The position numbers and the translations under genes were made by a program. This document shows positions 37,426 to 61,839 of a stretch of DNA of 64,000 bases, piece by piece. The DNA lies in the NCBI RefSeq assembly GCF_003402535.2, contig NZ_AP025170.1:1488001-1552000 (forward strand), written 5' to 3'. The notes under the pieces were generated by a model. The model did no database searches. It was not told where the DNA came from and saw nothing but the letters and a program-made list of their open reading frames with translations. The DNA comes from Cupriavidus sp. P-10 (lineage in GTDB: Bacteria > Pseudomonadota > Gammaproteobacteria > Burkholderiales > Burkholderiaceae). Each line of letters opens with the position of its first letter. The stretch's first letter is position 1.

Positions 37426-37633
37426 CACTTCAGGTGGCGCAAACCGCGGCTGGCCGTTGTGCGGCGGTGCTTTCGGCCCGAGCGAACGGCTGCTTCGAGA
37501 AAACGAGATTTACCGCGCCGGCCCGTGCTGCGAGACTTGATGCATTGGCGGCCGGCACAACGGGCCGCAACCGGATCACCGTTGTTTGCGCGCGCTGTGG
37601 CGGTGCAAACGCAATCTTCACGAAAAGGCTGCT

Positions 37634-38812: not shown

Positions 38813-38922
38813 CCCGCGCCGCTCGCTTTTCCCCACCATGTCTTGCCGCCACCATGTCTTGCCGCTCTACGCCCGCCTGTCGGCGGGAAGGCGGCGCTCG
38901 CCCGTACGCCAGCAGGGTTCCC

Positions 38923-39738: not shown

Positions 39739-39850
39739 GAACACCTTTCCGTGCGAGCGAATGGCTCGTTCAGAACTTTCGAATGGGAACCGGCCGCGCC
39801 AGCAGGCATAGTGGAACCACGCAATCAACACCAGAGACCAGAGAGACGTG

Positions 39851-40699
39851 ATGGACGTTGTTAAGTTGAAGGAATGGATCGGCAAGACCACGGAAAGCCA
39901 GGACGAGATCACCGCGTATCCCGTCAAGGCGCTGTCGGCAACACTCGACTATGAACACGCCGCGGCGACGCGCGGCGACGGCATCCCGCCCCTCTGGCAC
40001 TGGCTCTACTTCCTGCCGCTGCACCGCCAGTCAGAGATCGGCGCGGACGGCCACGCCAGCCGCGGCGGCTTCCTGCCGCCGGTGCCGCTGCCGCGCCGCA
40101 TGTGGGCGGGCGGCCGCCTCTGGTTCCACCAGCCGCTGCGCGTTGGCGATGCGGCGTCCAAGGTATCCCGCATCCTCGATGTCAGTGCAAAGACCGGCCG
40201 CACGGGTTCGCTTGCATTCGTCACAGTGGAGCATAAGTACTCGGGCCCCAATGGCCTCGCGGTCACGGAAGAGCACGACATCGTCTATCGCGAAAGCGCT
40301 TCGCCGGATGCGCCCGCACCGGCCCCGGTTCCCGCGCCGACGGACGAAGAGTGGGCGCAGGAGGTGGCAACCGATCCCGTGCTGCTGTTCCGCTTTTCCG
40401 CACTGACCTTCAACGGCCATCGCATCCACTATGACAAGCCGTACGTGAGCACGGTCGAGCATTACCCGGACCTGATCGTCCACGGCCCGCTGCAGGCGAT
40501 GTTGCTGCTGGAGCTGGTGCGCACCAACCTGCCGGACGCCGTGGTCAAGACCTTTTCGTTCCGAGGCGTGCGTCCCACCTTTGTGCCGCAGCGCATTTTC
40601 GTCTGCGGCAAGCGCAGCCCGGACGGCAAGACCGTCGAGTTGTGGATCCGCCATGAAGACGGCGCCCTCGCGATGAGCGCGACGGCAGAACTGAACTAA
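39851..40699 (+). CDS. MaoC/FAS1-like double hot-dog acyl-CoA hydratase
   Basis: A protein of 282 residues with two hot-dog halves. The N-terminal half is FAS1-dehydratase-like (PLWHWLYFLPLHRQSEIGAD). The C-terminal half has the hydratase pattern FRFSALTFNGHRIHYDKPYV and VHGPLQAMLLLELV. Such proteins include mesaconyl-C4-CoA and itaconyl-CoA hydratases. The ATG at 39851 is used; a GTG directly before it would add one residue. The position between the lyase and the dehydrogenase supports hydration of an unsaturated C5-dicarboxylyl-CoA to citramalyl-CoA (inference). Confidence 0.87.
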   Translation: MDVVKLKEWIGKTTESQDEITAYPVKALSATLDYEHAAATRGDGIPPLWHWLYFLPLHRQSEIGADGHASRGGFLPPVPLPRRMWAGGRLWFHQPLRVGDAASKVSRILDVSAKTGRTGSLAFVTVEHKYSGPNGLAVTEEHDIVYRESASPDAPAPAPVPAPTDEEWAQEVATDPVLLFRFSALTFNGHRIHYDKPYVSTVEHYPDLIVHGPLQAMLLLELVRTNLPDAVVKTFSFRGVRPTFVPQRIFVCGKRSPDGKTVELWIRHEDGALAMSATAELN

Positions 40700-40724
40700 C
40701 CCCCAGGAAGTTGGAGACCAGGCT

Positions 40725-41885
40725 GTGCAGAACCGAATCGATGAATACCAGGAAATCCGTGAGGCCGTCCGCGACCTGTGCGGGCAGTTCTCATCGGAGT
40801 ACTTCCGCAAGGTCGACGAAGTGCGGGGCTACCCCGAAGACTTCGTCAATGCGCTGACCGAGGCCGGCTGGCTGGCGGCGCTGATTCCGGAAGAGTACGG
40901 CGGCTCAGGCCTCGGCCTGACGCAGGCCTCCGTGATCATGGAGGAAATCAACCGTGCCGGCGGCAACTCGGGCGCCTGCCACGGCCAGATGTACAACATG
41001 GGCACGCTGCTGCGCCACGGCTCCGCCGAGCAGAAGAAGCTGTACCTGCCCAGGATCGCCAGCGGCGAACTGCGCCTGCAATCGATGGCCGTGACCGAGC
41101 CGACCACCGGAACCGATACCACCAGGATCAAGACCACCGCAGTGCGCAAGGGCGACAAGTATGTCGTCAACGGCCAGAAAGTGTGGATCTCGCGCGTGCA
41201 GCATTCTGACCTGATGATCCTGCTGGCGCGCACCACGCCGCTGGCCGAGTGCACGAAGAAGTCGGAAGGCATGTCGATCTTCGTCGTCGACCTGCGCGAG
41301 GCGATCGGCAAGGGCCTGACTGTCCAGCCGATCCTCAACATGGTCAACCACGAGACCAATGAGCTGTTCTTCGACAACCTGGAGATCCCGGTCGAGAACC
41401 TGATCGGCGAGGAAGGCAAGGGCTTCAAGTACATCCTCGACGGGCTCAACGCCGAGCGCACGCTGATTGCCGCCGAGTGCATCGGCGACGGCTACTGGTT
41501 TATCGACAAGGTGACCAAGTACGTCAACGAGCGCGTGGTTTTCGGCCGTCCGATCGGCCAGAACCAGGGCGTGCAGTTCCCGATCGCCAAGGCCTTCGTC
41601 AACGTCGAGGCCGCCAACCTGATGCGCTTCAAGGCGGCAAAGCTGTTCGACGCGCACCAGCCATGCGGTGCCGAAGCCAATATGGCGAAGATGCTGGCGG
41701 CGGATGCGTCGTGGGAAGCCGCCAATGCCTGCCTGCAGTACCACGGTGGCTTTGGCTTTGCGGCGGAGTACGACGTCGAGCGCAAGTTCCGTGAGACGCG
41801 CCTGTACCAGGTGGCGCCGATTTCGACGAACCTGATTCTTTCCTACGTAGGCGAGCATATCCTGGGGATGCCGCGCTCGTTCTGA
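40725..41885 (+). CDS. Acyl-CoA dehydrogenase with a displaced catalytic base
   Basis: A protein of 386 residues starting at GTG after a GGAAGTTGGAG site. FAD-binding motifs are normal (LQSMAVTEPTTGTDTT, VNGQKVWISRVQHSD, and LQYHGGFGFAAEYDVERKFR). At the site where medium-chain enzymes carry Glu in YxxYEGTS, this protein reads YQVAPISTN, so the residue is Pro365. Glu244 in LNAER lies where isovaleryl-CoA and long-chain dehydrogenases keep their base. It could oxidise a branched dicarboxylyl-CoA such as methylsuccinyl-CoA. Last gene of the operon. Confidence 0.9.
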   Translation: MQNRIDEYQEIREAVRDLCGQFSSEYFRKVDEVRGYPEDFVNALTEAGWLAALIPEEYGGSGLGLTQASVIMEEINRAGGNSGACHGQMYNMGTLLRHGSAEQKKLYLPRIASGELRLQSMAVTEPTTGTDTTRIKTTAVRKGDKYVVNGQKVWISRVQHSDLMILLARTTPLAECTKKSEGMSIFVVDLREAIGKGLTVQPILNMVNHETNELFFDNLEIPVENLIGEEGKGFKYILDGLNAERTLIAAECIGDGYWFIDKVTKYVNERVVFGRPIGQNQGVQFPIAKAFVNVEAANLMRFKAAKLFDAHQPCGAEANMAKMLAADASWEAANACLQYHGGFGFAAEYDVERKFRETRLYQVAPISTNLILSYVGEHILGMPRSF

Positions 41886-41929
41886 GGCTGGGCGAGAACG
41901 CTTGCCTGTGCCGCCACCTCTGGCAAACG

Positions 41930-41961
41930 CTCCCCTCTCCCGCGCGCGGGAGAGGGGAGCA
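41930..41961. terminator. Perfect 32-bp palindrome between convergent operons
   Basis: GCTCCCCTCTCCCGCG followed by its exact complement CGCGGGAGAGGGGAGC forms a strong hairpin 45 bp after the acyl-CoA dehydrogenase stop and 50 bp before the end of the convergent BCCP-like gene. It is symmetrical and lacks a clear T-tract. It probably acts as a two-way transcription stop, and similar GC-rich palindromes tend to be multi-copy in such genomes. Confidence 0.6.
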
Positions 41962-42011
41962 AACCGGCAGCGTGCCGGGCTTGATCGGTTCTGGCAACGC
42001 GCTGTCGTTAC

Positions 42012-42428
42012 CTACAGCACCCTCTCAAACGCAAACAACGCCTGTCCATAGCCGACCAGGCTGCCGCAGTCAGCGGCCTGCTCGCCCAGGATTAAGCGTT
42101 CCCCCGCGAGCACGGCGCTCAGTACAGCGCCCACCTGCAAATAGCCGACTGGCTCCCCGGCCTCGATGACGAGGCGTGCCGGTTCAAAGGTTTCGTCCGC
42201 CAGTGGATGACTGGCGTGGAAGATGCCTGCTGCTGGCGCCCGTATGAAATCTTCATCGCAGCCACGCAGTTGGGGCTGGGTTGCAGCCTGGGACACTATC
42301 GCGGTCTTGTCTTGCGCCACCACGGGCCCGCTCAACACCAGGCGCTTGCCGCCCAGTTCGAGTTCCAGGAGTTCCATGGTGCCGGATCGCATCCGCTCGG
42401 CCAGCCGCTCGATCGTTTCAAGGTTCAT
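42012..42428 (-). CDS. BCCP-like protein without the biotin lysine
   Basis: A protein of 138 residues whose second half aligns with a biotinyl domain (IRAPAAGIFHASHPLAD, VIEAGEPVGYLQVGAVLSA, GYGQALFAFERVL). The biotin acceptor motif EAMKM is replaced by QVGAV, so the modified lysine corresponds to Ala101. The only lysines are at 28 and 41, outside the domain. It therefore cannot carry biotin. The N-terminal 35 residues resemble the start of the true BCCP two genes upstream, which points to gene duplication. It begins 2 bp after the biotin carboxylase stop and is the last gene of the operon. A structural or regulatory role is possible. Confidence 0.78.
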   Translation of the reverse strand: MNLETIERLAERMRSGTMELLELELGGKRLVLSGPVVAQDKTAIVSQAATQPQLRGCDEDFIRAPAAGIFHASHPLADETFEPARLVIEAGEPVGYLQVGAVLSAVLAGERLILGEQAADCGSLVGYGQALFAFERVL

Positions 42429-42429
42429 G

Positions 42430-43788
42430 TCAGGCGCGCTCCCCAAGCCCTTGCTCCAGGCACCGTTCCAGGTGGTGAATGTCATAGCCGCCCTGCACGA
42501 ACCCAGGTTCGTCCATCAGCACCCGGTGCAGCGCCACTGTTGAGTCGATGCCTCCCAACACGATTTCATCCAGCGCCACGCGCATGCGTGCGATCGCTTC
42601 TTCGCGCGTGGCACCATGCGCGAGCAGCTTGGCGACCAGGGAGTCATAGTTCGGCGGTACCGCGTAGCCTGCATAGAGATGGGATTCCACGCGTATGCCG
42701 GGACCGCCGGGCGGCACCCAACCGGTGACACGGCCGGGAGCCGGGGTGAACCGCCACGGGTGTTCGGCGTTGATGCGGCATTCCACGGCATGCCCGCGAA
42801 GCACTACGTCTTCCTGTCGGAAGGAGAGCGGCTCGCCGCGGGCGATACGGAGTTGCTCGGCGACGATGTCGATCCCGGTGACCAGTTCGGTGACCGGATG
42901 CTCCACCTGTACCCGGGTATTCATCTCGATAAAGAAGAAGGCGCCGTCCTCATAGAGGAACTCGAAGGTGCCGGCGCCACGGTAGCCGATATGCAGGCAC
43001 GCCCTGGCACATTGCTGACCGATCCTCGCAATCGCCTCGCGGGGAATGCCCGGCGCCGGCGATTCCTCGATGACCTTCTGATGGCGCCGCTGCATCGAGC
43101 AGTCGCGCTCGCCGAGCCAGACGGCATTGCCATGGGCGTCCGCCAGCACCTGGATTTCGACATGGCGGGGACGTTCGAGGAATTTCTCCAGGTAGACGTG
43201 CGGGTTGTTGAATGCCCGTGCGGCTTCCTCGCGGGTCATGGCGATTGCCTGGGCAAGCTCGGCCGGTTCGCGCACGATGCGCATGCCGCGCCCGCCGCCA
43301 CCACCTGCCGCCTTGACGATCAGCGGGTACCCGACCTTGTCGGCGAGCACCGCCGTGGCTTGCATGTCGTCCGTCAGCGCGCCCTCGGAGCCGGGAACGC
43401 AGGGAACGCCGGCTTCGATCATCGCGCGCTTGGCGCTGACCTTGTCTCCCATGCGCCGGATCGAGGCCGCGGTGGGGCCGATGAAGACCAGCCCGGCATC
43501 CTCCACCGCCTGCGCAAAGTCCGCGTTTTCCGACAGGAAGCCATAGCCGGGATGGATCGCATCGGCACCTGACAGGCGTGCTGCCAGCAGCAATTCGTTC
43601 TGGTCCAGGTAGCTTCGGCCCGCGGGTGCCGGACCGATGCACAAGGCCTGGTCCGCCAGCGCGACGTGACGCAGGTTGGCATCGGCCTCGGAATGCACGG
43701 CTACCGTGCGGATGCCAAGCTTGCGGCAGGCCCGCAGTACCCGCAGCGCAATTTCGCCACGGTTGGCGATCAACACAGTCTCAATCAT
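42430..43788 (-). CDS. Biotin carboxylase (AccC-like)
   Basis: A protein of 452 residues with the biotin carboxylase fold: [20 protein letters not shown], the ATP-grasp glycine loop [14 protein letters not shown], and [20 protein letters not shown] with the catalytic Glu/Arg. It carboxylates biotin on BCCP using ATP and bicarbonate. In this operon it is an accC paralogue linked to the pxp genes rather than to fatty acid synthesis; the latter normally has its own accBC. Its start overlaps the BCCP stop by 8 bp. Confidence 0.93.
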
Positions 43789-44239
43789 GGTCGTCTCCCG
43801 CAGGCTCGATCACGAAGAGCGGCGCGCCGGCTTCCACCGAGGCGCCATCCGTGGCGACGATCCGGACAACGCGGCCCTTGTGGTCGGCCTCGACCGTGTT
43901 CAGCATCTTCATGGCTTCGATGATGGCAAGCTGTTGTCCTGCTTCCACGAGGTCGCCTACCGCCACGAACGCAGGCTGGCCAGGCGCGGGGGCGCCGTAG
44001 AACATGCCGGAAAGGGGCGCCGAGACGGTTTGGGTCCTGTCCTGCGGGGCAATGGCTGCGGCAACAGGAGCAGGCGCATCCTGCACTGGCGTGGCAAGCG
44101 TGGCGGTAGCGTCGGCCTCCGGCGCACCGGAGCGGACCAGCCGGACGCGCCCGCTATCCTCGGCGTACTCCAGTCCTGACAAGGCCGAACGCTCCAGGAT
44201 GCCAATGAGCTGCTCTATGAAGTCGATATCGATCGGCAT
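43781..44239 (-). CDS. Biotin carboxyl carrier protein (BCCP)
   Basis: A protein of 152 residues with N-terminal helix ([15 protein letters not shown]), Ala/Pro-rich linker (residues 45-72) and C-terminal biotinyl domain containing the acceptor Lys111 in [11 protein letters not shown]. It would carry carboxybiotin between the neighbouring biotin carboxylase and the PxpB/PxpC carboxyltransferase-like pair. It starts 7 bp after the pxpA stop. Confidence 0.92.
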
Positions 44240-44246
44240 GCTCACC

Positions 44247-45026
44247 TCAGCTGAAGGCCCGTACCGCGACGCCAGCCTCCTCGAGGGTGCGCCGCACCTG
44301 CGCGGCCATGGCGATTGCCCCCGGGGTATCGCTGTGCACGCAGATCGACTCGATCGGCGCGGGAAGCAGCTTGCCCGAGATGGTTTCGATCGCGCCGGCA
44401 CGCACCATTCGCAGCATCCTTGCAGCGGCCTCGTGCGCGTCGTGCAGCACCGCGCCGGGGATCTTGCGATGCACCAGGTGACCCTCGTCGGTGTAGGCGC
44501 GGTCGGCGAACACTTCGGCACATACCCGCAACCCCATCTCCTTGCCGATGCGCTCGAGATGGCCGTTGGCAAAGGTCAGGCAGACCAGGTTGGCATCCAC
44601 TGCCTTGATGGCGCGGGCAATGGCGGTGGAGACGTCGGCATCGGTCTGGGTCAGGTTGCCGAGCGCGCCATGTGCCTTGACGTAGGTGATGGGGTGGCCC
44701 GCGTAGGCGGAAAGCGCTTGCGCGGCACCGATCTGGTAGGCAACCAGCCGTTCGATCTCGCCGGTGCTGAACGGGATGATGCGCCGGCCGAAGCCCCAGA
44801 GGTCGGGGAAACCGGGGTGCGCACCCACGGCGACGCCACGTTCCCTGGCCAGGGCGAAGGTGCGGGCCATGATCTCCGGATCGCCGGCGTGCAGGCCGCA
44901 GGCGATATTGGCGGAGCTGACGATATCGAGGATGGCTTCGTCGTCGCCCATGCGGTAGGCGCCGAATCCCTCGCCCATGTCGGAGTTCAGGTCGACGCGC
45001 AAGGCTGCTGCATTCTGTGTGGTCAT
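44247..45026 (-). CDS. pxpA: PxpA/LamB-YcsF family protein
   Basis: A protein of 259 residues of the LamB/YcsF family: VDLNSDMGEGFGAYRMGDDE at the N-terminus, SSANIACGLHAGDPEIMART, and VKAHGALGNLTQ. In E. coli and B. subtilis, PxpA with PxpB and PxpC forms an ATP-dependent 5-oxoprolinase that opens the pyroglutamate ring. Here it sits between pxpC and BCCP, so it may act with a biotin-dependent partner on pyroglutamate or another lactam. The start has the normal family N-terminus. Confidence 0.92.
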   Translation of the reverse strand: MTTQNAAALRVDLNSDMGEGFGAYRMGDDEAILDIVSSANIACGLHAGDPEIMARTFALARERGVAVGAHPGFPDLWGFGRRIIPFSTGEIERLVAYQIGAAQALSAYAGHPITYVKAHGALGNLTQTDADVSTAIARAIKAVDANLVCLTFANGHLERIGKEMGLRVCAEVFADRAYTDEGHLVHRKIPGAVLHDAHEAAARMLRMVRAGAIETISGKLLPAPIESICVHSDTPGAIAMAAQVRRTLEEAGVAVRAFS

Positions 45027-45059
45027 GGTTGCTTATGTCGATGTGGTTTGGGGGAGGCT

Positions 45060-46058
45060 TCAGCGGCGTTGCGCCATCAGCGCGAGATTGCTGCGCAGTG
45101 ACGCGCGTTCTTCGGATTGCGCCTGCGATGCGGCAAGGGCCTGGTCCTGGCCGACCGCCATGAATCGCACGCGGCAGCCGACAGGCGCCTGGGCAAGCCG
45201 CCACAGATCAGCCTCGATCACGGTGGCGATCTTGGGATAGCCGCCGCAGGTGTTGGCCTCCGCGAGCTGGATGATGGGTTGGCCTGAGGGCGGGACCTGT
45301 ACGGTTCCGGGCACGATGCCATGCGACAGCAGTTCCAGCGGCCAGGTCAGCGTCAGGGCTTCGCCGGCCAGGCGGTATCCCTGGCGGTTGGCGTCGGGTG
45401 TCACCTTGTACTCGGTGCCGGTGAAGGCGGTCCTGGCCTGCTCGCTGAACTGTTCGTACTCGGCAGCCGGGACGGCCCGTACCGTCACGCAGCCCTGGGA
45501 CAATTCCTGCCAGAACGCGGGAATGTCGTTGGGGATCAGGCCGAGCCCTGAGCCTTGCAGCGCGGGTTTTGCCGCGGGCGTCGCCTCGGGGGTCGCATTG
45601 GCGAGCGGCAGCACGTCGCCACGCCGCAGGCCACGTCCCTCCCAGCCGCCGAATCCGCCTTTGAGGTCGGTCGATCTGGAACCTAGAACGGGCGCGACAT
45701 CGATGCCGCCGGCGAAGGCCAGGTAAGCACGCGCGCCCCGGCGGGGGCGCTCCACCACCAGCACCTGGCCAGCGCGGGCGCGTTTGCTCCACCACGGCGC
45801 CAGTACGCGCTCGTCGAGCAGCACGCGGCTGTCCGAACCCGTGCAAGCGAAGACCGTGTCGGACTGGAAGCGCATGCGGAACGGGAACAGGCTGATCTCG
45901 ATCCCGGCCGCGCCATCGTCGTTGCCGGCCAGCGCATTGGCAAGGGACAGCGCCATGGCATCCATCGCGCCGCTGCGGCCCACCCCGATACCAAGGTGGC
46001 CACGCCGGCCCAGGTCCTGGACGACGTTGGGCGCTCCGGTGGAGAGGATTTCGATCAT
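45060..46058 (-). CDS. pxpC: PxpC/KipA family carboxyltransferase-like subunit
   Basis: A protein of 332 residues of the AHS2 (KipA/PxpC) family: MIEILSTGAPNVVQDLGRRG, GRSGAMDAMALSLANALAGN, AYLAFAGGIDVAPVLGSRST and the C-terminal EANTCGGYPKIATVIEADL. AHS1/AHS2 domains form the carboxyltransferase of urea carboxylase and the PxpBC part of 5-oxoprolinase. The ATG at 46056-46058 overlaps the pxpB stop (ATGA). It contributes the partner active site to PxpB. Confidence 0.92.
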   Translation of the reverse strand: MIEILSTGAPNVVQDLGRRGHLGIGVGRSGAMDAMALSLANALAGNDDGAAGIEISLFPFRMRFQSDTVFACTGSDSRVLLDERVLAPWWSKRARAGQVLVVERPRRGARAYLAFAGGIDVAPVLGSRSTDLKGGFGGWEGRGLRRGDVLPLANATPEATPAAKPALQGSGLGLIPNDIPAFWQELSQGCVTVRAVPAAEYEQFSEQARTAFTGTEYKVTPDANRQGYRLAGEALTLTWPLELLSHGIVPGTVQVPPSGQPIIQLAEANTCGGYPKIATVIEADLWRLAQAPVGCRVRFMAVGQDQALAASQAQSEERASLRSNLALMAQRR

Positions 46059-46765
46059 GATGCGATGCCCTCCACCCTGAAGTGCACACGGTCTCCCGGC
46101 GCCAGCAGGCAAGGCACGCTGCGGTGCGGGTCGAACGTATCCAGCGTCGTCATGCCGACGAGATGCCAGCCGGACGGGGCCGTGCATGGCATTACCCCGG
46201 CGTGGCTGCCACCGATCGCCACGGAGCCTTTCGCCACCTTCGTCCTTGGCACCTGCCGGCGCGGCGTGGCAAGCCTGGCCGGCAGGCCCGTCAGGAAGGC
46301 AAAGCCAGGGTATGCGCCGATGCAGGCGACCGAGTACACTGCGGCGCTGTGCAAGCCGACGAACGCTTCGATGGTCAGTCCGGCGCCTGCCGCCAGGGCC
46401 GGCAGGTCTTCACCGGCGTCTGCGCCATAAAGCACCGGAACCTCGATATCCCGGCCCGGTCGTGCCTTGACCTCAAGCGTCTCCCAGAGGCCGACCAGGC
46501 GAGCGCGGGCGCTGGCAGGCTGCAGCAGCACAGGATCAAACACCACGAGCAGATTGTTGACGCCCGGTACGGTTTCCCGAACCCCGTCAAGCACCTTGCC
46601 CCCCGACAGCAGGGCGGAAAGCGCCCAGATGCGTTCCTGTATCGCCTGGTCGAATTCGCCGGCTGCGGCATCGAGCAGCAGCGCGGTGGTTCCTGCGGCG
46701 TGGATCCTGGGCATCCTGTCGGCGCTGTCCACGTGGCCCGCAGGCTGTTCTTCAATGGCATGCAT
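46055..46765 (-). CDS. pxpB: PxpB/KipI family subunit
   Basis: A protein of 236 residues of the AHS1 (KipI/PxpB) family: the VNNLLVVFDPVLL strand, the PVLYGADAGEDLPALA block, CIGAYPGFAFLTGLPARLAT, and GSVAIGGSHAGVMPC with TAPSGWHLVG. It pairs with PxpC. The start at 46763-46765 leaves 17 bp to the Bug gene stop; about 30 residues before the core family sequence are extra or poorly conserved. Confidence 0.9.
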   Translation of the reverse strand: MHAIEEQPAGHVDSADRMPRIHAAGTTALLLDAAAGEFDQAIQERIWALSALLSGGKVLDGVRETVPGVNNLLVVFDPVLLQPASARARLVGLWETLEVKARPGRDIEVPVLYGADAGEDLPALAAGAGLTIEAFVGLHSAAVYSVACIGAYPGFAFLTGLPARLATPRRQVPRTKVAKGSVAIGGSHAGVMPCTAPSGWHLVGMTTLDTFDPHRSVPCLLAPGDRVHFRVEGIAS

Positions 46766-46782
46766 GGTCGTATCCACGGGAT

Positions 46783-47754
46783 TCAGTCGAGCTTGATGCC
46801 AGCGTCGTCGACCACCTTCTTCCACTTGGCGGTTTCGCTCTTCATCACCGCACCCAGCTGCTCCGGGCTGCCTCCGGCCGGATCCAGCCCCATCTCGACC
46901 AGCTTGCTGCGGATTTCCTTGTCGCGGAGGATTTCATCGATCGACTGGTTCAGCCTGGCAACGATCTCCCTGGGCGTGCCCGCCGGCGCGACAAAGGCCT
47001 GCCAGAAAATCATCTCGAACCCCTGCATGCCGGACTCGGCGATGGTGGGCAGTTCGGGGTATTCGGCGGAGCGCTTTGCCGTGGTGATGGCCAGCGCCTT
47101 CAGCTTGCCGGCCTTGACCAGCGGCATCGCCTCGGGCAGCAGCGCCATCATGATCTGCACCTGGCCCGCCATCAGGTCCTGCAGCGCGGGCGCGCCGCCC
47201 TTGTACGGCACATGGACGACATTGGCGCCGGTGACGCGCTTGTACAACTCCATGCCGAGGTGGCTGGGCGTGCCGTTGCCGGCCGAGGCGTAGCCTTCGC
47301 TGCCGGGCTTGCCCTTCAGGAACCTGAGCAGGTCCGGCATCGACTTCGCCGGTACGTTCGGGTTGACCACCAGCACGCTGGGGATGGTGGTGGCCTGGAT
47401 GACAGGCGCGAAGTCCTTGCGCGGATCGTAGGCAAGCTTGCTGTACAGGCTCGGGTTGACCGACAGGCCGGTCATCGTGGCCAGCAGGATGTTGTAGCCG
47501 TCGGGCGCGGATTTCGCCACGAAGCTCGCGGCGATTGCCTCGCTGGCGCCGGGCCGGTTATCGACGACCACGGGCTGGCCAAGTTTCACCGAAAGTTTCT
47601 GCCCGACCATGCGCGCCACCGCATCGGTGGAACCACCGGCCGGGTAGGGCACGACGAGGCGAACCGGTTTGGTCGGATAGTCGGTGGCGCTTGCCGTGGA
47701 GATGTCGGAGGCAAACGTCAGGCAGGCAACCAGGCAGGCAATAGCGAACTTCAT
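46783..47754 (-). CDS. Bug-family (TTT) solute receptor 3, in the pxp operon
   Basis: A protein of 323 residues with a signal peptide (MKFAIACLVACLTFASDIST) and Bug signatures YPTKPVRLVVPYPAGGSTDA, VVDNRPGASEAIAASFVAKS and the YASAGNGTPSHLGMELYKRV ligand loop. It lies 17 bp upstream of pxpB in the same direction, so it very probably captures the substrate of the PxpABC/biotin enzyme. No TctA/TctB membrane subunits are near. The association of a Bug receptor with pxp and biotin genes is the best clue to the ligand class, an amide or carboxylate (inference). Confidence 0.9.
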   Translation of the reverse strand: MKFAIACLVACLTFASDISTASATDYPTKPVRLVVPYPAGGSTDAVARMVGQKLSVKLGQPVVVDNRPGASEAIAASFVAKSAPDGYNILLATMTGLSVNPSLYSKLAYDPRKDFAPVIQATTIPSVLVVNPNVPAKSMPDLLRFLKGKPGSEGYASAGNGTPSHLGMELYKRVTGANVVHVPYKGGAPALQDLMAGQVQIMMALLPEAMPLVKAGKLKALAITTAKRSAEYPELPTIAESGMQGFEMIFWQAFVAPAGTPREIVARLNQSIDEILRDKEIRSKLVEMGLDPAGGSPEQLGAVMKSETAKWKKVVDDAGIKLD

Positions 47755-47871
47755 GACAGTCTTCCTTCAAGGGGGGCAGGAACAACATCGTGGAAACACG
47801 CAGCGCGCAAAGGCATGGCGGCGCCGCGACAAGTCTTGGTGCTGGCGTTGGATATCGGTGCCACTGCCGCG

Positions 47872-48681
47872 CTATGTGCCCGACAACCGCGCCAGGAACC
47901 CGGAAATCCGCGCCCACATCTCCGGCGGGTTCGAGTACATGGGGAAATGCCCGCACCGCGGAATCTCCGCGAGTTCCACGCCATGGCGTTCGAGATGGGC
48001 CAGGTAGGACAGCGAGGCGTTCTGCGCGCCGTACATGAACATCTTCGGGCAAGGCAGGCCGAGGAATTTCGTCATCAGGTCGCCGTTGTCGGAAAGGTCG
48101 ACCATCGACTCGAAGATGCCGCGGACGGCGCCGGCGCGCACCTTGTGCCGCAGGCTGGCCGCATATAGCGGGCTGGAGAAGTACGAGGAGTGCCAGGTGC
48201 GCTCGATGAACGCTTCAAAGAAGCGGTCCGCGTCGTCGGTGCGATGCGAGACGATCTGCCGGCTGAGGAAGCAATCCTCGGGGGCCACATTGCCCTCGAT
48301 GTCGATAAAGCTCAGCACGCGTTCGGGGGCGCGGTGGGCCAGCATCAGAGCGGTCAGGCCGCCCATGGAATGGCCGACCAGGTGAAAACGTTCCATGTCG
48401 AAGTGGTCGAGGGCGGCAAGCGCCGTTTCGACCAGGAAGGGGATCGAGATCCGGGACAGGTCCCCGCAACGCGTCTCGCCGCAACCGGGCGCATCGTAGG
48501 CCAGTACTGCGCGGCCGGCGAGTGCGGGCTGCAGGACGATGTCCGCGTAATCCTCCTTGGTCGAGCCGAAGCCGTGCAGGAAGACAAGGGGAGGGTATTC
48601 GCCGGGGCAATGGAGCGTGGAGAGCTCGATTGGCGCTCTGCTTACGGTTAGTGGAATGCGTTGCCTGGTGAGTGGTGACAC
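47872..48681 (-). CDS. Alpha/beta-hydrolase
   Basis: A protein of 269 residues. The GTG at 48679-48681 is chosen as start because GGAGG lies 8 bp before it and the frame upstream runs into the aminotransferase end. The nucleophile Ser sits in LVGHSMGGLTALML, the oxyanion region in LVFLHGFGSTKEDY, and the acid and His near the C-terminus (CGHFPMYS). It cleaves an ester, amide, thioester or C-C bond of the pathway substrate. Genes on both sides run in the same direction (68 and 117 bp spacers), so it belongs to the 42-51 kb operon. Confidence 0.88.
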   Translation of the reverse strand: MSPLTRQRIPLTVSRAPIELSTLHCPGEYPPLVFLHGFGSTKEDYADIVLQPALAGRAVLAYDAPGCGETRCGDLSRISIPFLVETALAALDHFDMERFHLVGHSMGGLTALMLAHRAPERVLSFIDIEGNVAPEDCFLSRQIVSHRTDDADRFFEAFIERTWHSSYFSSPLYAASLRHKVRAGAVRGIFESMVDLSDNGDLMTKFLGLPCPKMFMYGAQNASLSYLAHLERHGVELAEIPRCGHFPMYSNPPEMWARISGFLARLSGT

Positions 48682-48749
48682 GTTGGAGCCTCCAGATGTG
48701 GGACGAAGACAGCCCAGCTTGAGCAGCCGGCAAGCCGAAGGGCCGGCGC

Positions 48750-49967
48750 TCAATCCCTCAGCGCACCGCAAAACCCCGCGATCGCCTCGCACGCCTGCCG
48801 CAGCGATTCCGTATCCAGCGCATACGCAATCCGGATATACGGCCCCAGCCCAAACGCGCTGCCGTGCACGACCGCGACATTGGCTTCATCCAGCAGCGCG
48901 CCAGCGACATCCTCGTCGGTCTGCAGCAGCGTGCCGGCCGCCGTACGCCGGCCCAGCAACCCCGCGCACGAGGCAAACGCATAGAACGCGCCGCCAGGCA
49001 CCGGGCATTCCAGCCCCGGCGTATCGTTGAGCATCCGGATCATCAGGTCCCGTCGCTCCTCGAACACGGCACGCGATTCCGTAATGAAGTCCTGCGGCCC
49101 GGTCAGCGCAGCCAGCGCGGCATGCTGGGAGATGGAGCAGGCGCCCGAAGTCTGTTGCCCCTGCACCTTCTCCATCGCTTCCAGCAGCCAGCGCGGCCCG
49201 GTGCCGAAGCCGATGCGCCAGCCGGTCATCGCATACGCTTTGGATACCCCGTTCATGGTCAGCGTGCGCGATGCGAGGCGTGGTTCCACAGCGGCCAGCG
49301 TGTGGAAGCGGGCGCCGTCGAACGTCAGGTGTTCATAGATATCGTCCGACAGCACCAGCACATGCGGGTGCGCCAGCAGCACTTCGGCCAGCGCGGCCAG
49401 CTCTTCGCGCGTATAGACCGCACCGGTCGGGTTCGACGGCGAATTCAGTATCAGCCAGCGCGTCTTTTCTGTGATCGCCTGCGCCAGCGCGGCAGGGGTC
49501 AGCTTGAAACCGGCTTCCGCACCGCACGGAACAATCACCGGGATGGCGCCCGACAACTGCACCATCTCCGGATAGCTGACCCAGTATGGCGCCGGCACGA
49601 TGACCTCGTCGCCCACGTTCAGCGTCGCCGACAGGGCGTTGTAGATCACCTGCTTGCCGCCGGTGCAGACAATGGTGTCCTGCCAGTCCACGTCCAGGCC
49701 GTTTTCATGGCGGAACTTGGCGGCGATGGCTTCGCGCAGCGCACGCATGCCGGCCACCTGCGTGTAGCGCGTGTGGCCGGCGCGGATCGCTTCGATGGCG
49801 GCATCGCGGACATGTGCCGGGGTATCGAAGTCGGGCTCGCCGGCACTCAGCGAGATGATGCTGGCACCGGATGCCCGCCGGGCTGCCACCCGGTCCATGA
49901 TCCGGTAAGTCGCGGAGGCCCGGGCGCAGGCCAGGTTGACGTTCAGGCGCTGGATATCGGCGTGCAT
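48750..49967 (-). CDS. Class I PLP aminotransferase (aspartate-type)
   Basis: A protein of 405 residues of fold-type I: SLSAGEPDFDTPAHVRDAAI, LNSPSNPTGAVYTREELAAL, the PLP lysine in NGVSKAYAMTGWRIGF, and AFGLGPYIRIAYALD near the C-terminus with the carboxylate-binding arginine. It resembles aspartate/prephenate aminotransferases and would transaminate the amino acid freed in this pathway. Its first base overlaps the stop of the upstream RraA gene (TGATG). Confidence 0.92.
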   Translation of the reverse strand: MHADIQRLNVNLACARASATYRIMDRVAARRASGASIISLSAGEPDFDTPAHVRDAAIEAIRAGHTRYTQVAGMRALREAIAAKFRHENGLDVDWQDTIVCTGGKQVIYNALSATLNVGDEVIVPAPYWVSYPEMVQLSGAIPVIVPCGAEAGFKLTPAALAQAITEKTRWLILNSPSNPTGAVYTREELAALAEVLLAHPHVLVLSDDIYEHLTFDGARFHTLAAVEPRLASRTLTMNGVSKAYAMTGWRIGFGTGPRWLLEAMEKVQGQQTSGACSISQHAALAALTGPQDFITESRAVFEERRDLMIRMLNDTPGLECPVPGGAFYAFASCAGLLGRRTAAGTLLQTDEDVAGALLDEANVAVVHGSAFGLGPYIRIAYALDTESLRQACEAIAGFCGALRD

Positions 49968-50629
49968 CAGGACTTCCTCTGCAGGGTGTGGTAGCCAAGG
50001 GCCGCACGGGCCTCGCCGAGCGTCTTGCCGCTGGCGATGTGCTCACGGATCTGCGCTTCGACCGCTTCGATGCTGCGCGCCAGTTCCGCCACCTCGCGCG
50101 CCCGCTCGCGCGGCACCACCACCACGCCGTTGGCATCGGCGACGACGATGTCGCGCGGGCAGACGCGCGCTGTGCCGACGGATACGGGAGCGTTGACCGC
50201 TTCCACTTGCACGCGATCCTTGCCGGTGCGCATGAAGCGGCCGCGCGAGAACAAGGGATACCCGTCGCCCAATGCCCTGGCGACGTCGCGGCAGACGCCG
50301 TCGATGACGGTGCCGGCAATGCCGCGCGCGCCGGCATACTGGGTCATGATGTCGCCCCAGACGGTGCAGTCGGTGCGGCCATCGTTGTCGATGACGACCA
50401 CGTCGCCCGCGGCTACGTCATCGATGAAATCGCCAACGGTGCCGGGCGGTGTGCTTGCCGGCACATACCTGACCGTGTACGCCGGCCCGACGACCACCTG
50501 GCGATAATTGTCCAGCGGCGCGATGCCGAGGCATTGGCCGGGCAGGCCCAGCCGGTCCATCGCATCCGATACTCCGGGGGTATCCAGTCCCTCGAACAGG
50601 GCAACCAGTTCCTTGTCTTGCGCGCTCAT
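49967..50629 (-). CDS. RraA-family aldolase-like protein 1
   Basis: A protein of 220 residues of the RraA/HMG-aldolase superfamily: AMDRLGLPGQCLGIAPLD, VIDNDGRTDCTVWGDIMTQY, and GTVIDGVCRDVARAL with the catalytic pair Arg114-Asp115 of 4-hydroxy-4-methyl-2-oxoglutarate aldolases. Such enzymes split 4-hydroxy-2-oxo acids to pyruvate and also decarboxylate oxaloacetate. Overlaps of 1 and 4 bp tie it to the aminotransferase and to RraA protein 2, so it is coupled to transamination. The substrate is inferred only from family. Confidence 0.88.
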   Translation of the reverse strand: MSAQDKELVALFEGLDTPGVSDAMDRLGLPGQCLGIAPLDNYRQVVVGPAYTVRYVPASTPPGTVGDFIDDVAAGDVVVIDNDGRTDCTVWGDIMTQYAGARGIAGTVIDGVCRDVARALGDGYPLFSRGRFMRTGKDRVQVEAVNAPVSVGTARVCPRDIVVADANGVVVVPRERAREVAELARSIEAVEAQIREHIASGKTLGEARAALGYHTLQRKS

Positions 50630-51294
50630 TTTGCTGCTCCGGTGTGGATGGCGTCGAATTCCTTGTCGTGCATGACCGCTTCCCCGGAACGGCCCGTGCG
50701 TACGGCCTGCACCATGCCGTCCTGCCGGCGCGCGATGTGCTCGGCCAGGTCGAGCACCGTTTCGATCCGCGCCGCCGGGACGAACACCGTGCCGCAGCGG
50801 TCCGCGATCACATAGTCGTCCTGGTGCACCACGACGCCAGCAAAGGCCACGGGTTCGCCAGAGCCGGTCTGCACCACGCGGTTGCGCGCGCTGATCATGG
50901 TCACGCCGCGGCCGAAGACGGGATAGCCGATCGATTCGCTGCCTTCGATATCGCGGCTGAGGCCGTCGATCACCGAGCCGCGCACTTTGCGGGCCGTGGC
51001 GGCATTGGCGAGGATGTCGCCCCAGCAGGAGATGCCGTCGAGGCCGCCGGCGATCACCAGTACGCGGTCGTCGCTGTCGATCGCCGCGACAACGGGTGTG
51101 ATCAGGTGCGCCGTCGGCGCGGCGTCGGTCTTGGGACCCAGCTGGACGGTGCTGGCGCGGCCCGCGATCCTGGGGCAGTCCCACAGCGGGCGGATGCCAT
51201 ACGTGGCCCCTGGCAGTTCCAGGAAGTCGAGTGCGTCAGACACCGTGTTGGTATCGAGCGCGGCAAGGCGGTCAAGCAGGGTAGGAGAAGTCAT
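50626..51294 (-). CDS. RraA-family aldolase-like protein 2
   Basis: A protein of 222 residues of the RraA superfamily: ALDFLELPGATYGIRPLWDC, GLDGISCWGDILANAATARK, and GSVIDGLSRDIEGSE with Arg114-Asp115 present. The ATG at 51292-51294 is the first gene of the long minus-strand operon, divergent from the LysR gene at 51.4 kb. Its end overlaps RraA protein 1 by 4 bp. The two are clear paralogues with different C-termini, and may form a mixed trimer or hexamer or act on different substrates. Confidence 0.88.
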   Translation of the reverse strand: MTSPTLLDRLAALDTNTVSDALDFLELPGATYGIRPLWDCPRIAGRASTVQLGPKTDAAPTAHLITPVVAAIDSDDRVLVIAGGLDGISCWGDILANAATARKVRGSVIDGLSRDIEGSESIGYPVFGRGVTMISARNRVVQTGSGEPVAFAGVVVHQDDYVIADRCGTVFVPAARIETVLDLAEHIARRQDGMVQAVRTGRSGEAVMHDKEFDAIHTGAAK

Positions 51295-51346
51295 TGCGGC
51301 TTCCAGAGTGGTTGCTTGGCCTGCACTATCGGCGCTAGAGTCTGAT

Positions 51347-51361
51347 CCGTAAATTTCGAAG
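51347..51361. promoter_or_regulatory. Element shared by both flanks of the RraA cluster (site A)
   Basis: On the minus strand the sequence CTTCGAAATTTACGG lies between the divergent RraA gene 2 and the LysR gene, 53-67 bp and 38-52 bp from their starts. Its first 13 bases recur as CTTCGGAATTTAC, with one change, in front of RraA gene 3 (52369-52381). The overlapping region of TTCGAA symmetry suits LysR binding. Confidence 0.5.
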
Positions 51362-51398
51362 AACAGAACCTTTCCATACGCCAAAGCTATCAACCATC

Positions 51399-52340
51399 AT
51401 GATCAACTTCAGACTGGTAAGGCACCTGTGGCTGTTCCTGGCCGTGGCCGAGGAAGAGCACTTCGGGCGCGCGGCGAAGCGGCTGGGGATGTCGCAGCCC
51501 CCGCTGACCGAGCAGATCCAGGTGCTCGAACATGCGCTGAAGGTCCGGCTGTTCGAGCGCTCCCGGCGCGGCGCGAAGCTGACCGCCGCCGGCGCGGCGA
51601 TCCTGCCGGCGGTGCGCAAGTTCGCCGAGCAGCTGGAGCGGCTGGAGCTGGCGGTGCGCGAGGCGGTGCAGGGCCAGAGCGGCGTGCTGACCATCGGCGC
51701 CATCTCATCGGCAATGGTCGAGACCCTGCCAGCGCTGATCGAGCACCTGAAGGCGGAGTATCCGCAACTCACGGTATCGGTGAAGGAAATCGACAGCGTC
51801 GAGGCCGTGCCGGCGCTGGAGCAAGGCGATGTCGATCTCGCGTTCGCGCGCCTGGAAGGCGACCTTGGGCCGTCGATCCAGTCCATCGCGCTGAAGCAGG
51901 AGCGGCTGGCGGTGGCGCTGCCAAGGTCCCACCGCCTGGCGGAACTGCCCCGGATTCGCCTGGCGTCGCTGGCGGAAGAGGCCTTTGTGATCTTCTCCCG
52001 GCATGTGAGCCCGGTCTACTACGACAGCCTGATTGCCACCTGCCGGGCCGCCGGCTTTTCACCCCGCATCCTGCATGAGGTGCGGACCGTGTCGTCGCAG
52101 ATCGCCTTTGTCAGGTGCGGGCAGGGGATCGCGCTGGTACCGGCTTCACTGAAGAAGGCGGCCTCGGACAATGTGGTCGTGAAGCCGCTGAAGGAGGCCG
52201 TCAACGTGGTCACGACCGCCATGGCATGGTCGACCAGCCGGGAGAACCCGATGGTGCAGGCGGCCGTGGCGGCCTTGTCGGCCGGCAAGATCGCGGAGCG
52301 CAAGCCGCGCCGGCGCGCGACCGCACCGCCTGCCGGCTGA
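51399..52340 (+). CDS. LysR-family regulator of the RraA/pxp operon
   Basis: A LysR-type regulator of 313 residues: HTH (LVRHLWLFLAVAEEEHFGRA, LGMSQPPLTEQIQVLEHALK) and effector domain with FSRHVSPVYYDSLIATCRAA. It belongs to the CbbR/BenM-like subgroup (AEEEHFGRAAKRLGMSQPPL). It is divergent from the 9-kb operon that starts with RraA gene 2, and RraA gene 3 follows it. A common element in both promoter regions suggests it controls both. Confidence 0.92.
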   Translation: MINFRLVRHLWLFLAVAEEEHFGRAAKRLGMSQPPLTEQIQVLEHALKVRLFERSRRGAKLTAAGAAILPAVRKFAEQLERLELAVREAVQGQSGVLTIGAISSAMVETLPALIEHLKAEYPQLTVSVKEIDSVEAVPALEQGDVDLAFARLEGDLGPSIQSIALKQERLAVALPRSHRLAELPRIRLASLAEEAFVIFSRHVSPVYYDSLIATCRAAGFSPRILHEVRTVSSQIAFVRCGQGIALVPASLKKAASDNVVVKPLKEAVNVVTTAMAWSTSRENPMVQAAVAALSAGKIAERKPRRRATAPPAG

Positions 52341-52381: not shown

Positions 52382-52471
52382 AGAAGGATCACGGAGGCAG
52401 AAAGTTGGCGGACTGGTGCGTCGCCACGGAAGGACCGTGAGGCGCGATGTCTTTCCGTACCGGAGCCTGCC

Positions 52472-53140
52472 GTGGCGTCAAACTTTGCCATCCACCCCGT
52501 TCCCCAACTTGCTCCGGCCGCGCTGGTCGAGGCCTTTCGCGAGGTCGTGACCCCGCATATCAGCGACAACCTGCAGCGCCTGTCCGGCGTGACCGGGCTG
52601 ACGCGGTTTCACCGCAGCAAGAAGCTGGTCGGTACAGCCTTCACGGTGAAGGCCAGGCCCGGCGACAACCTGCTGATCTACAAGGCACTGATGGAACTCC
52701 AGCCCGGCCACGTGCTGGTGGTGGATGGTGGCGGCGATTGCACCAATGCGCTGATCGGCGAACTGATCATGCTCTACGCGCAGCAGCGCGGTTGCGCCGG
52801 ATTCGTGCTCGATGGCGCGATCCGCGACACTGCGGCGTTCTACGAAGCCGATTTTCCCTGCTATGCGCGCGGCACCAGCCACCGCGGGCCGTACAAGCTC
52901 GGGCCCGGTGCGATGAACGTGCCGGTATCGATCGGCGGGCAGGTGATTTCGCCCGGCGACCTCATCGTCGGCGATGAGGATGGCGTGGTGTCGTTTCCGG
53001 CGGCCCAGGCGACTGCGCTGCTTGAAGCCGTGCAGGCCACCGTCTCGAAGGAAGACGCCATCAAGGACGAGATTGCAACCGGTCGGCGCGAGCAAGGCTG
53101 GCTTGAAGCCGTACTCGCGCCACACGGGCTGCTGGGGTAA
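52472..53140 (+). CDS. RraA-family aldolase-like protein 3
   Basis: A protein of 222 residues of the RraA superfamily, on the plus strand: VTPHISDNLQRLSGVTGL, VVDGGGDCTNALIGELIMLY, and GFVLDGAIRDTAAFYEAD with Arg118-Asp119 kept. The GTG at 52472 is chosen as start because a GGAG lies 6 bp before it and family-like sequence begins there. It is closer to typical 4-carboxy-4-hydroxy-2-oxoadipate aldolases than the other two (GHVLVVDGGGD). It follows the LysR gene and converges on the TonB receptor gene. Confidence 0.86.
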   Translation: MASNFAIHPVPQLAPAALVEAFREVVTPHISDNLQRLSGVTGLTRFHRSKKLVGTAFTVKARPGDNLLIYKALMELQPGHVLVVDGGGDCTNALIGELIMLYAQQRGCAGFVLDGAIRDTAAFYEADFPCYARGTSHRGPYKLGPGAMNVPVSIGGQVISPGDLIVGDEDGVVSFPAAQATALLEAVQATVSKEDAIKDEIATGRREQGWLEAVLAPHGLLG

Positions 53141-55624: not shown

Positions 55625-55753
55625 CTTGCATCTCCTCGGGCGTACGGGGGTGCTGCCTGCATCGGGCGGCACCTGAAATCGAACTAGCTGAGGGGGTGGG
55701 GAGCAGGTTCCGTACCTCGGGCATCGGGAAAAACTCCCGACCTGGACCGGAGC

Positions 55754-55792
55754 GTCGACCACCAACGTCGACCGCCAACGCCGACCACCATC
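55754..55792. repeat. Three 13-bp direct repeats before the histidine kinase gene
   Basis: The units GTCGACCACCAAC, GTCGACCGCCAAC and GCCGACCACCATC follow one another at 55754-55792, ending 5 bp before the GGAGGAG ribosome site of the kinase gene. The spacer is shared with the divergent TonB receptor gene, so this may be an iteron-like regulator site. Confidence 0.75.
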
Positions 55793-55810
55793 CCCCGGAG
55801 GAGCACTGCC

Positions 55811-60793: not shown

Positions 60794-60803
60794 GGCGCAA
60801 CCC

Positions 60804-61613: not shown

Positions 61614-61670
61614 ACTGGGCTGCGGCCGCCACGCATGGCTGTTCAGATCTGGAGCAGATGCAACGCAGTG

Positions 61671-61700: not shown

Positions 61701-61839
61701 TGCGGCCGCTTTCGGCGTGCTAGCGCGGCAATCCGATTGGCATGGGAATTGCCGTAAGTGCGGGTCCGGTGCCTGGTGGGTGCCTGGTATCGGCGCACTG
61801 GCGCATCGGTGGGAAACCAAAACAAGAGAGGAGAAGGCA

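Follow-up and report, generated by a model that had tools for sequence, protein, structure and literature searches.

A PxpABC-type operon of Cupriavidus with biotin carboxylase, BCCP and a BCCP homologue lacking the biotinyl lysine

Background

The closest described relative of the operon reported here is the 5-oxoprolinase PxpABC, encoded by ybgJKL in E. coli and, according to the available part of PMC13274462, by pxpTABC in C. glutamicum. The E. coli pxpABC cluster includes no biotin carboxylase (BC), so biotin need not be what activates an enzyme of this kind. The urea carboxylase/urea amidolyase of K. lactis (PDB 3va7/5i8i; described in the accessible portion of PMC5770610) contains BC, BCCP and an AHS2-AHS1 carboxyltransferase, while M. 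smegmatis entry 9yx5 combines acyl-CoA carboxylase alpha3, of the BC-BCCP type, with "Allophanate hydrolase" subunits 1 and 2, which are homologues of PxpB and PxpC. BADC is a BCCP homologue that lacks the AMKL/AMKM motif and is 25-30% identical to BCCP; the available text of PMC11926652 calls it unique to the plant enzyme. The RraA family includes the HMG/CHA aldolase of P. putida (3noj; accessible part of PMC5065237), and RraA-fold enzymes carry out other chemistry too, a dehydratase/decarboxylase being described in the available part of PMC8563752. In the literature searched, which left most subscription journals outside, no description was found of a BC/BCCP-linked PxpABC or of a bacterial lysine-less BCCP.

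The operon lies in a 64,000-nucleotide stretch, referred to below as the window, of the genome of Cupriavidus sp. P-10, a soil-type bacterium. Like E. coli ybgJKL it encodes all three Pxp subunits in the order B-C-A, but it adds BC, BCCP and a further carrier homologue, here called X. It has BC, BCCP, AHS2- and AHS1-type subunits as the putative carboxyltransferase, and the PxpC fold in common with urea carboxylase, though as separate subunits, with PxpA replacing the allophanate hydrolase and with the extra non-biotinyl carrier; in 9yx5, by contrast, BC and BCCP are in one chain, common to other acyl-CoA carboxylase entries. As BADC is described in the available text of PMC11926652, X resembles it in standing beside BC and BCCP without a biotinyl motif, though X is bacterial and belongs to a PxpABC-type operon.

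Results and Discussion

Operon organization

The operon runs on the minus strand between 51294 and 42012, from RraA1 to X. Pfam and NCBIfam place in it ten genes of named families (two RraA, an aminotransferase, a hydrolase, a Bug receptor, PxpB, PxpC, PxpA, BCCP and BC), and X is the eleventh gene. This bears out the gene content of the first-pass annotation, though its description of "many" overlaps was slightly generous, since four of the ten junctions overlap (by 4, 1, 4 and 8 bp) and the other six are gaps of 1-117 bp, with 68 bp separating the aminotransferase and hydrolase genes. The 117-bp gap ahead of the Bug gene leaves room for an internal promoter.

A LysR regulator gene (51399..52340, plus strand; Pfam and synteny) diverges from the operon, and beyond it on the plus strand lies a third RraA gene, RraA3 (~52448..53140, exact start uncertain), of the PRK06201 type (NF004850, 278.5 bits; cut-off 231). 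The two products are 74% and 80% identical, respectively, in locus L186. Neither this third RraA nor the nature of X as a lysine-less BCCP homologue had been remarked on in the earlier annotation.

The carrier homologue without a biotinyl lysine

X (42012..42428, minus strand) is matched by neither Pfam nor NCBIfam at E<=0.001, and its close homologues that bear a source name are annotated "hypothetical protein". It is nevertheless a full-length BCCP homologue: X profiles match BCCPs in profile comparison, the AF2 model is confident (pLDDT 83), and its structural matches in the PDB are BCCP domains. The column of the biotinyl lysine holds Ala in the window protein, and Lys is absent from it in all 31 X proteins of the 31 clusters studied (the window plus 30, mostly chosen via X); 28 of the 31 clusters also encode a Lys-bearing BCCP. 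X thus shows the features of a BADC-type paralogue: BCCP homology and fold, no biotinylation motif and a place adjoining BC and BCCP. To the X of Cupriavidus necator the window protein is 55-56% identical, but its identity to the other 19 members of alignment A1 is just 18-28%. The frames are open, and the alignment shows conserved Gly, His-Pro and G-x-G positions.

At the loose threshold of E<=1e-6 the A1 profile matches 344/349 order genomes and 363/398 phylum genomes; since what is presumed to be the housekeeping AccB is also matched, this setting is unusable for counting X, and the family-level count was therefore made at E<=1e-25, a setting that overlooks the X genes present at the loci of G243 and G374 at least. 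X was present in all 14 family genomes with a PxpA at least 62% identical to that of L111 (a set chosen by PxpA), and in six (L174-L179) of 11 candidate loci from the phylum list, being absent from the other five (L180-L184).

PxpA, PxpB and PxpC

The PxpB-like CT_C_D (AHS1) subunit (46055..~46765, start uncertain; PF02682), the PxpC-like CT_A_B (AHS2) subunit (45060..46058; PF02626) and the PxpA-like LamB/YcsF subunit (44247..45026; PF03746), all on the minus strand, score above the cut-offs of TIGR00370, TIGR00724 and NF003814, respectively. TIGR00724 is the broader 5-oxoprolinase/urea amidolyase family; against the PxpC equivalog model the same protein scores 296.8, below the cut-off of 500. 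The operon subunits fall far under the cut-off of 1303.85 of urea carboxylase model TIGR02712, which represents a single fused chain. The AF2 model of PxpC (pLDDT 90.5) is matched by Foldseek to YbgK and to urea carboxylase (3va7/5i8i), and PxpC shows homology with the CT region of urea carboxylase; that of PxpB is weak by sequence, and a counterpart of KlUA K1605 was not located in it, the second-domain alignment being too weak.

PxpA has Gly123 (VKAHGALGN) at a position that is Tyr in E. coli and six other types and mostly Tyr elsewhere, and PxpC carries the module-type residues P59, F60 and Q264. The same genome encodes a separate, E. coli-like pxpBCA (L114). In the trees of PxpC and PxpA the E. 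coli proteins join this L114 set rather than the window, with the module proteins in separate clades. The PxpC tree and the PxpB and PxpC comparisons leave out parts of L109 and L099 (length limits) and the L092/L116 readings; L192-L197, added later, are absent from the trees.

Biotin carboxylase and BCCP

The BC gene (42430..43788, minus strand) encodes an AccC-type enzyme (TIGR00514, 699.8 bits; cut-off 626.5), and the BCCP gene (43781..44239, minus strand; PF00364) a carrier with the motif EAMKM, its lysine present, that scores 110.4 against TIGR00531, just below the cut-off of 115.2. All 13 BC catalytic positions inspected (E. coli numbering) hold the expected residue. A separate accB-accC pair lies elsewhere in the genome, at L191, and the BC of the operon shares 68% identity with this genome's own AccC. 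In the BC tree the module BCs form a clade of 23 rows (support 100/99) joined to betaproteobacterial AccC even though it includes alpha- and gammaproteobacterial members, so the BC seems to have travelled, and to have been inherited, together with the module. Both the separate accB-accC pair and this clade uphold the earlier view that BC and BCCP belong with PxpABC and are not a stray acetyl-CoA carboxylase. Further BC lineages occur near Pxp genes (L115/L064; L116/L092/L099, with only a PxpA match at L099), as if Pxp loci had gained biotin partners more than once. L021, a duplicate of L105, was left out of the BC tree, of the PxpA/PxpB/PxpC residue comparison and of the aminotransferase and RraA counts given below.

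Conservation of the module

The six-gene module BCCP-BC-X-PxpB-PxpC-PxpA is found again in other genomes of beta-, gamma- and alphaproteobacteria, where an aminotransferase of the window's family usually accompanies it and an RraA often does so too. BC, BCCP and X accompany PxpABC in 28 of the 31 clusters, the exceptions being L109, L177 and L179. X and Pxp genes for which no dedicated BC was found are present in G1150 (L179) and in G1132, whose cluster is truncated by a contig end; these would consequently have to borrow AccC. G1150 encodes an AccC-like BC (63%) on a different contig and a 44% BC within a 1207-residue frame.

An aminotransferase at least 45% identical occurs at 19 of 25 module loci and at none of 82 other loci, and RraA at 14/25 against 2/82; these counts, made in related genomes with query proteins drawn from module loci, lack independence. 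RraA is absent from some module loci even when the neighbourhood is extended. In three relatives RraA1 (78-83%), RraA2 (81-86%), the aminotransferase (74-80%) and the hydrolase (64-68%) are all kept, at 64-86% identity overall; in one of them the hydrolase gene lies across the LysR gene from the operon, and in all three an MFS transporter stands at or near the place of the Bug receptor. With the recurrence of aminotransferase and RraA in the clusters, this agrees with the conserved, catabolic-looking unit that had been proposed.

Putative transport and downstream enzymes

The Bug/TctC periplasmic receptor (46783..47754; PF03401, 3.7e-80) and the alpha/beta hydrolase (47872..~48681, start uncertain; PF12697) and the class I aminotransferase (48750..49967; Pfam/NCBIfam) are all encoded on the minus strand. 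The last is PRK06107-like, scoring 527.9 bits, below the cut-off of 617, which its counterpart in related cluster L110 exceeds (674.3); its nearest PDB entry is 6f77, "Aspartate aminotransferase A" (E 2.3e-148).

RraA1 (50626..51294, minus strand; PF03737, 3.1e-29, and the RraA alignment) gave no NCBIfam match at E<=1e-20. RraA2 (49967..50629, minus strand; PF03737) is nearest to PDB 3k4i (7.7e-52), compared with 1.5e-11 for the HMG/CHA aldolase 3noj. Both are only distant relatives of that aldolase, and RraA2 and RraA3 lie below the LigK/PcmE and PRK09262 cut-offs (for PRK09262, 92.2 and 132.1 against 179). The RraA fold and the catalytic Arg-Asp pair are common to them and the P. putida enzyme, the pair (its Arg-123/Asp-124) being kept in all 16 aligned RraA proteins, including the window's three. 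Of the three, it is RraA3, outside the coordinates given in the earlier annotation, that comes closest to the RraA proteins which most other clusters encode, and it is about 40-53% identical to nine RraA of related clusters; RraA1 and RraA2 are not close kin of the former. That the route of the operon ends specifically at an HMG aldolase is thus weakly supported.

Proposed mechanism and alternatives

The reading that we favour, at a probability of about 0.5, sees in the operon a ring-opening enzyme of the PxpABC/urea-carboxylase type that works with biotin, along with the subsequent steps, and in X its structural glue or cap. A substituted 5-oxoproline-like lactam would be taken up via Bug (in relatives, via MFS or an ABC system for amino acids). 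BC would charge the biotin on BCCP with CO2, PxpC-PxpB would act as the carboxyltransferase, carboxylating the ring amide, and PxpA would open the activated ring by hydrolysis, giving an amino acid that resembles glutamate and releasing CO2. The aminotransferase could then yield a 2-oxo acid, which an RraA-type class II aldolase would cleave to pyruvate. We infer that the proteins form a complex and that the steps follow in this order; X, unable to carry biotin, may hold together or cap the BC-BCCP-PxpBC assembly, like plant BADC in plastid acetyl-CoA carboxylase. Our best guess at the substrate, from the chemistry of the family, is a 4-hydroxylated or otherwise C4-substituted oxoproline. Relatives carry 2-hydroxyacid dehydrogenase and sugar-acid-like SDR genes, which brought an agropinic-acid or opine substrate to mind; this idea was given up because evidence for it was lacking.

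An open or ureide-like nitrogen compound could instead be the substrate of a true carboxylase, as with urea or guanidine carboxylase, PxpA hydrolysing the N-carboxylated product with no lactam involved. BC, BCCP, CT_A_B and CT_C_D are indeed the parts of urea carboxylase, the PxpC fold matches 3va7/5i8i, and the module PxpA departs at its otherwise mostly Tyr position; however, NF003814 and TIGR00370, which PxpA and PxpB pass, are models of 5-oxoprolinase subunits, while the cut-off for urea carboxylase is reached by none of the proteins, and the nearness of the aminotransferase to 6f77 suggests a dicarboxylic amino acid product, so that we think this rather improbable. It also seems quite unlikely that PxpABC in this operon hydrolyses lactams in the ordinary way, with ATP only, and that BC, BCCP and X merely share the operon as a separate, second half of an acetyl-CoA/acyl-CoA carboxylase. 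The operon BC does pass the AccC model and is 68% identical to its own AccC, E. coli pxpABC has no BC, and at two Elusimicrobia loci lysine-less carriers stand by BC with no PxpABC; against this are the 28 of 31 clusters that hold BC, BCCP and X with PxpABC, the single-module descent seen in the BC tree, the other BC lineages near Pxp genes and the pairing of carboxylase alpha with PxpBC homologues in 9yx5, and among the genes identified no AccA/AccD-type partner was seen.

For X itself, a role as an inhibitor or regulator competing with BCCP for BC or PxpBC, which is the older view of BADC, would suit the presence of a normal carrier beside the lysine-less one in 28/31 clusters. The accessible part of PMC11926652 reports both views of BADC and argues against the inhibitory one, and a place within the enzyme operon across beta-, gamma- and alphaproteobacteria probably fits a structural subunit better, making regulation unlikely, if worth keeping in mind. 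That X is a decaying, functionless BCCP duplicate is hardly credible: the low identity of the window X to the 19 others in A1 (18-28%) would suit decay, but the open frames, the conserved Gly, His-Pro and G-x-G positions, the confident fold and the recurrence in 31 clusters all speak for a maintained protein. A plain AccB duplicate serving acetyl-CoA carboxylase was likewise thought unlikely, as X keeps to PxpABC loci among the clusters that were analysed, the Elusimicrobia loci excepted.

Wider significance

The conserved module unites PxpABC lactam opening and biotin carboxylation, kinds of enzyme that are usually apart, and genes automatically named "acetyl-CoA carboxylase" and "5-oxoprolinase" may form one uncharacterised catabolic enzyme. 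More tentatively, X might be a bacterial BADC, a dedicated, never-biotinylated BCCP paralogue that is structurally obligatory in a biotin enzyme of six proteins (BC, BCCP, X, PxpB, PxpC and PxpA) in which the lactam is activated by transient carboxylation; if so, a 5-oxoprolinase would have been built into a hydrolase that depends on biotin and uses CO2 catalytically. X suggests that BADC-like non-biotinyl carriers, called unique to the plant enzyme in the available text of PMC11926652, are also found in bacteria, where a small operon offers an easier test bed for their role. Such carriers are not bound to PxpABC alone, since at the Elusimicrobia loci L066 and L075 a lysine-less BCCP homologue adjoins BC with PxpABC absent, a hint that the idea of a non-biotinyl carrier may extend further.

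Gene X, a relative of BCCP

The most notable part of the operon is its unlabelled last gene, here called X (window positions 42012-42428), whose 138-aa product has no match in Pfam or NCBIfam at E <= 0.001. Its close relatives that carry a name from their source are filed as "hypothetical protein", and the nearest named ones come from Cupriavidus, at 55-56% identity. A profile made from eight X seeds matches true BCCPs, and one made from 20 X proteins (A1) matches 344 of 349 genomes of the order, mostly at what we take to be the housekeeping AccB; X is therefore a BCCP homologue across its full length. An AlphaFold model of the window's X, made with 20 sequences, has a pLDDT of 83.2. Its best PDB match is an acyl-CoA carboxylase chain, 9yx1, followed by the single domains 9a87 (Arabidopsis BCCP1), 1bdo and, lower, 4hr7; all of the best matches are BCCP-containing chains, and target-normalised TM is 0.84-0.86.

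What X does not have is the biotinyl lysine. A1-profile matches were aligned from 31 clusters (the window and 30 loci), most of them selected for holding X. In 28 proteins, all from different clusters, the biotinyl-lysine column is Lys. The remaining 31 proteins, one per cluster, have E, P, S, Q, H, A, R, L, G, F, V or N there; given how the clusters were selected, this count shows loss of the lysine to be general in X but does not show it to be universal. A Lys-bearing BCCP is missing from three clusters, L109, L177 (at a contig end) and L179. Within A1, G68 and G126 never vary, and H74, P75, V88, G122 and G128 hardly do.

In kind, X would be a bacterial counterpart of BADC, the plant non-biotinyl BCCP homologue of plastid acetyl-CoA carboxylase, with no common descent implied. 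According to PMC11926652, BADC has no AMKL motif, holds BC and BCCP together like glue, and is unique to the plant enzyme.

Distribution of X

The window's X alone, used as query, detects X in 15 of 249 family genomes, and the profile (E <= 1e-25) in 18 of 248, from 9 of 25 genera, which is a lower bound because the loci of G243 and G374 also hold X. All 14 family genomes whose PxpA shares at least 62% identity with the PxpA of locus L111 have X, 13 by the profile and G243 from its locus; G374 is a further carrier beyond the profile count. The single-sequence search of a 229-genome class sample found only the own genome. From a profile search of 398 phylum genomes, six of the 11 candidates fetched hold X (L174-L179), making at least seven with the own genome included. 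Among 80 loci collected through BC, X accompanies Pxp genes at six, which come from Pseudomonas japonica, Pandoraea iniqua, Chelatococcus asaccharovorans, a Reyranella MAG and two more MAGs of alphaproteobacteria. Two Elusimicrobia loci of the same 80 have a lysine-less match of 127-128 residues beside BC and no PxpABC nearby (1325-1711 in L066 and 8525-8908 in L075, about 1.1-1.3 kb upstream of BC), so that lysine-less carriers are not bound to PxpABC alone; these two are possibly BADC-like, serving another biotin enzyme.

The operon and its relatives

The first-pass annotation had grouped these genes rightly, and the gene families that it named were borne out with Pfam and NCBIfam. The reading order is RraA1, RraA2, a class I aminotransferase (AT), an alpha/beta hydrolase, a TctC-type (Bug) receptor, PxpB, PxpC, PxpA, BCCP, biotin carboxylase (BC) and X. 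Genes overlap at four of the ten junctions (by 4, 1, 4 and 8 bp) and are spaced 1-117 bp apart at the rest; promoter- and terminator-like matches are no commoner than chance at positions 41800-51500 of the window. A third RraA gene, RraA3 (about 52448-53140, plus strand), lies beyond the LysR gene and should be counted with the operon. Its PRK06201 score of 278.5 exceeds the cut-off of 231, and so does the score of the L110 RraA (301.5). With nine cluster RraA proteins it shares about 40-53% identity, and less with those of L176 (35%) and L032 (29%) and with an extra one in L188 (37%).

Fifteen of the 31 clusters are ordered BCCP-BC-PxpB-PxpC-X-PxpA, and in 13 of these, SDR and ABC amino-acid transporter genes come next; a divergent AT is usual in this layout, and RraA, a GhrB-like dehydrogenase and a porin are frequent. 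The order PxpB-PxpC-PxpA-BCCP-BC-X is seen in four, the window, L101, L104 and L106. Stretches from three relatives (L186 with L104, L187 with L106, L188 with L101) also keep RraA1 (78-83%), RraA2 (81-86%), AT (74-80%) and the hydrolase (64-68%). L186 retains LysR (74%) and RraA3 (80%) and carries Bug and MFS genes, while L187 (about 4419-5010) and L188 (15195-15839) have an additional RraA between RraA2 and AT, that of L188 being near but below the cut-off of PRK09262 (CHA aldolase; 167.9 vs 179).

Linkage was compared between 25 X loci, the duplicate L021 being left out, and a control of 82 other loci whose median length is similar and 80 of which carry BC. AT (at least 45% identity) is present at 19 X loci vs none of the others, the SBP3 receptor at 16 vs none, SDR at 18 vs four and RraA at 14 vs two, counts that are not independent because they come from related genomes and from queries drawn from loci with the module (BCCP, BC, X and PxpBCA). 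Longer stretches reveal both AT and RraA for L101 and L105, and RraA for L104; AT was not found in the stretches examined of L020, L022, L109 and L177, and several module loci lack RraA.

A dedicated BC and BCCP are not universal, since none of the former was found in genome G1150, whose locus L179 has X, PxpBCA, AT and RraA. Its BCs are one AccC-like protein (63%) on another contig, which the complex might borrow, and one of 44% in a long frame. At L177 (G1132), where X and Pxp genes are present, no dedicated BC was found in a locus cut by the contig end. L109 (G470), judged by its reading frames, is a decaying module copy: PxpA has an internal stop, BC is a 280-residue piece in open frame, the X frame is open, and no BCCP was found.

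Descent of the module

The window spans positions 1488001-1552000 of contig 1 in a 9.08-Mb genome, which has four PxpB-type loci: the window, the E. coli-like L114 (C1:74000-93500) without BC, and L115 (C2:2612500-2632000) and L116 (C1:1593000-1612500), each with a BC of another lineage nearby and neither with an X match. In a 43-row BC tree, the 23 module BCs form one clade (100/99). Because this clade joins the AccC of the own genome and of Nitrosospira, yet includes alpha- and gammaproteobacterial members, we infer that module BC seems to derive from a betaproteobacterial AccC and then to have moved with the module. BCs near other Pxp genes (L115/L064 and L116/L092/L099) are placed elsewhere, some on long or weakly supported branches, as if PxpABC had met biotin carboxylase more than once.

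Module PxpC (28 of 33 tree rows) stands apart from E. coli and L114 at 94/85 and from L115/L180/L064 at 98/97, and module PxpA (26 of 33) from all seven others at 96/90, the midpoint roots of both trees being only a drawing aid. PxpC has P59 in 27/27 and Q264 in 26/27 module rows vs 0/5 others for each. PxpA position 123 is Gly in 25/25 module rows and Tyr in 7/7 others, with Asn in an eighth non-module protein (L193); the KPHG lysine is retained in the window (VKAHG) and missing from the ABC-type clusters (MSFHG).

Proposed chemistry

All 13 inspected positions of the operon BC, which we take to be its catalytic residues, are kept, and BCCP retains AMKM. PxpC shares homology with the carboxyltransferase region of urea carboxylase, to which PxpB aligns only weakly by sequence. 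PDB 9yx5 holds the alpha3 chain of an M. smegmatis biotin-dependent acyl-CoA carboxylase together with matches to PxpB and PxpC, entered there as Allophanate hydrolase subunit 1 and 2, and may already answer how biotin meets PxpBC. Given these features, and with the pairing of urea carboxylase and allophanate hydrolase as the analogy, biotin would most likely deliver CO2 to a ring amide, PxpA would hydrolyse the activated amide, and the CO2 would then be released. The nearest PDB entry of AT, 6f77, suggests a dicarboxylic amino acid as what AT would act on, and the Arg-Asp pair present in the RraA proteins (PMC5065237) suggests that these would then release pyruvate. A guess that fits all of this, including the glyoxylate-reductase-like enzyme of clusters of the L110 type, is 4-hydroxy-oxoproline as substrate.

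Other genes in the window

A convergent plus-strand set at 37586-41885 encodes a CoA-transferase III, an HpcH/HpaI lyase, a FAS1-type dehydratase and an acyl-CoA dehydrogenase; such parts are frequent in C4/C5-dicarboxylyl-CoA routes. An adjacent pair of TctC/Bug receptors lies at 27216-28403 and 28681-29658 (plus strand). In the regions 53195-57139 (minus strand) and 57779-63591 (plus strand), a long frame with a TonB-dependent receptor domain in its C-terminal half overlaps a histidine kinase on the opposite strand, and is followed by an ABC ATPase and a PQQ-type dehydrogenase region.
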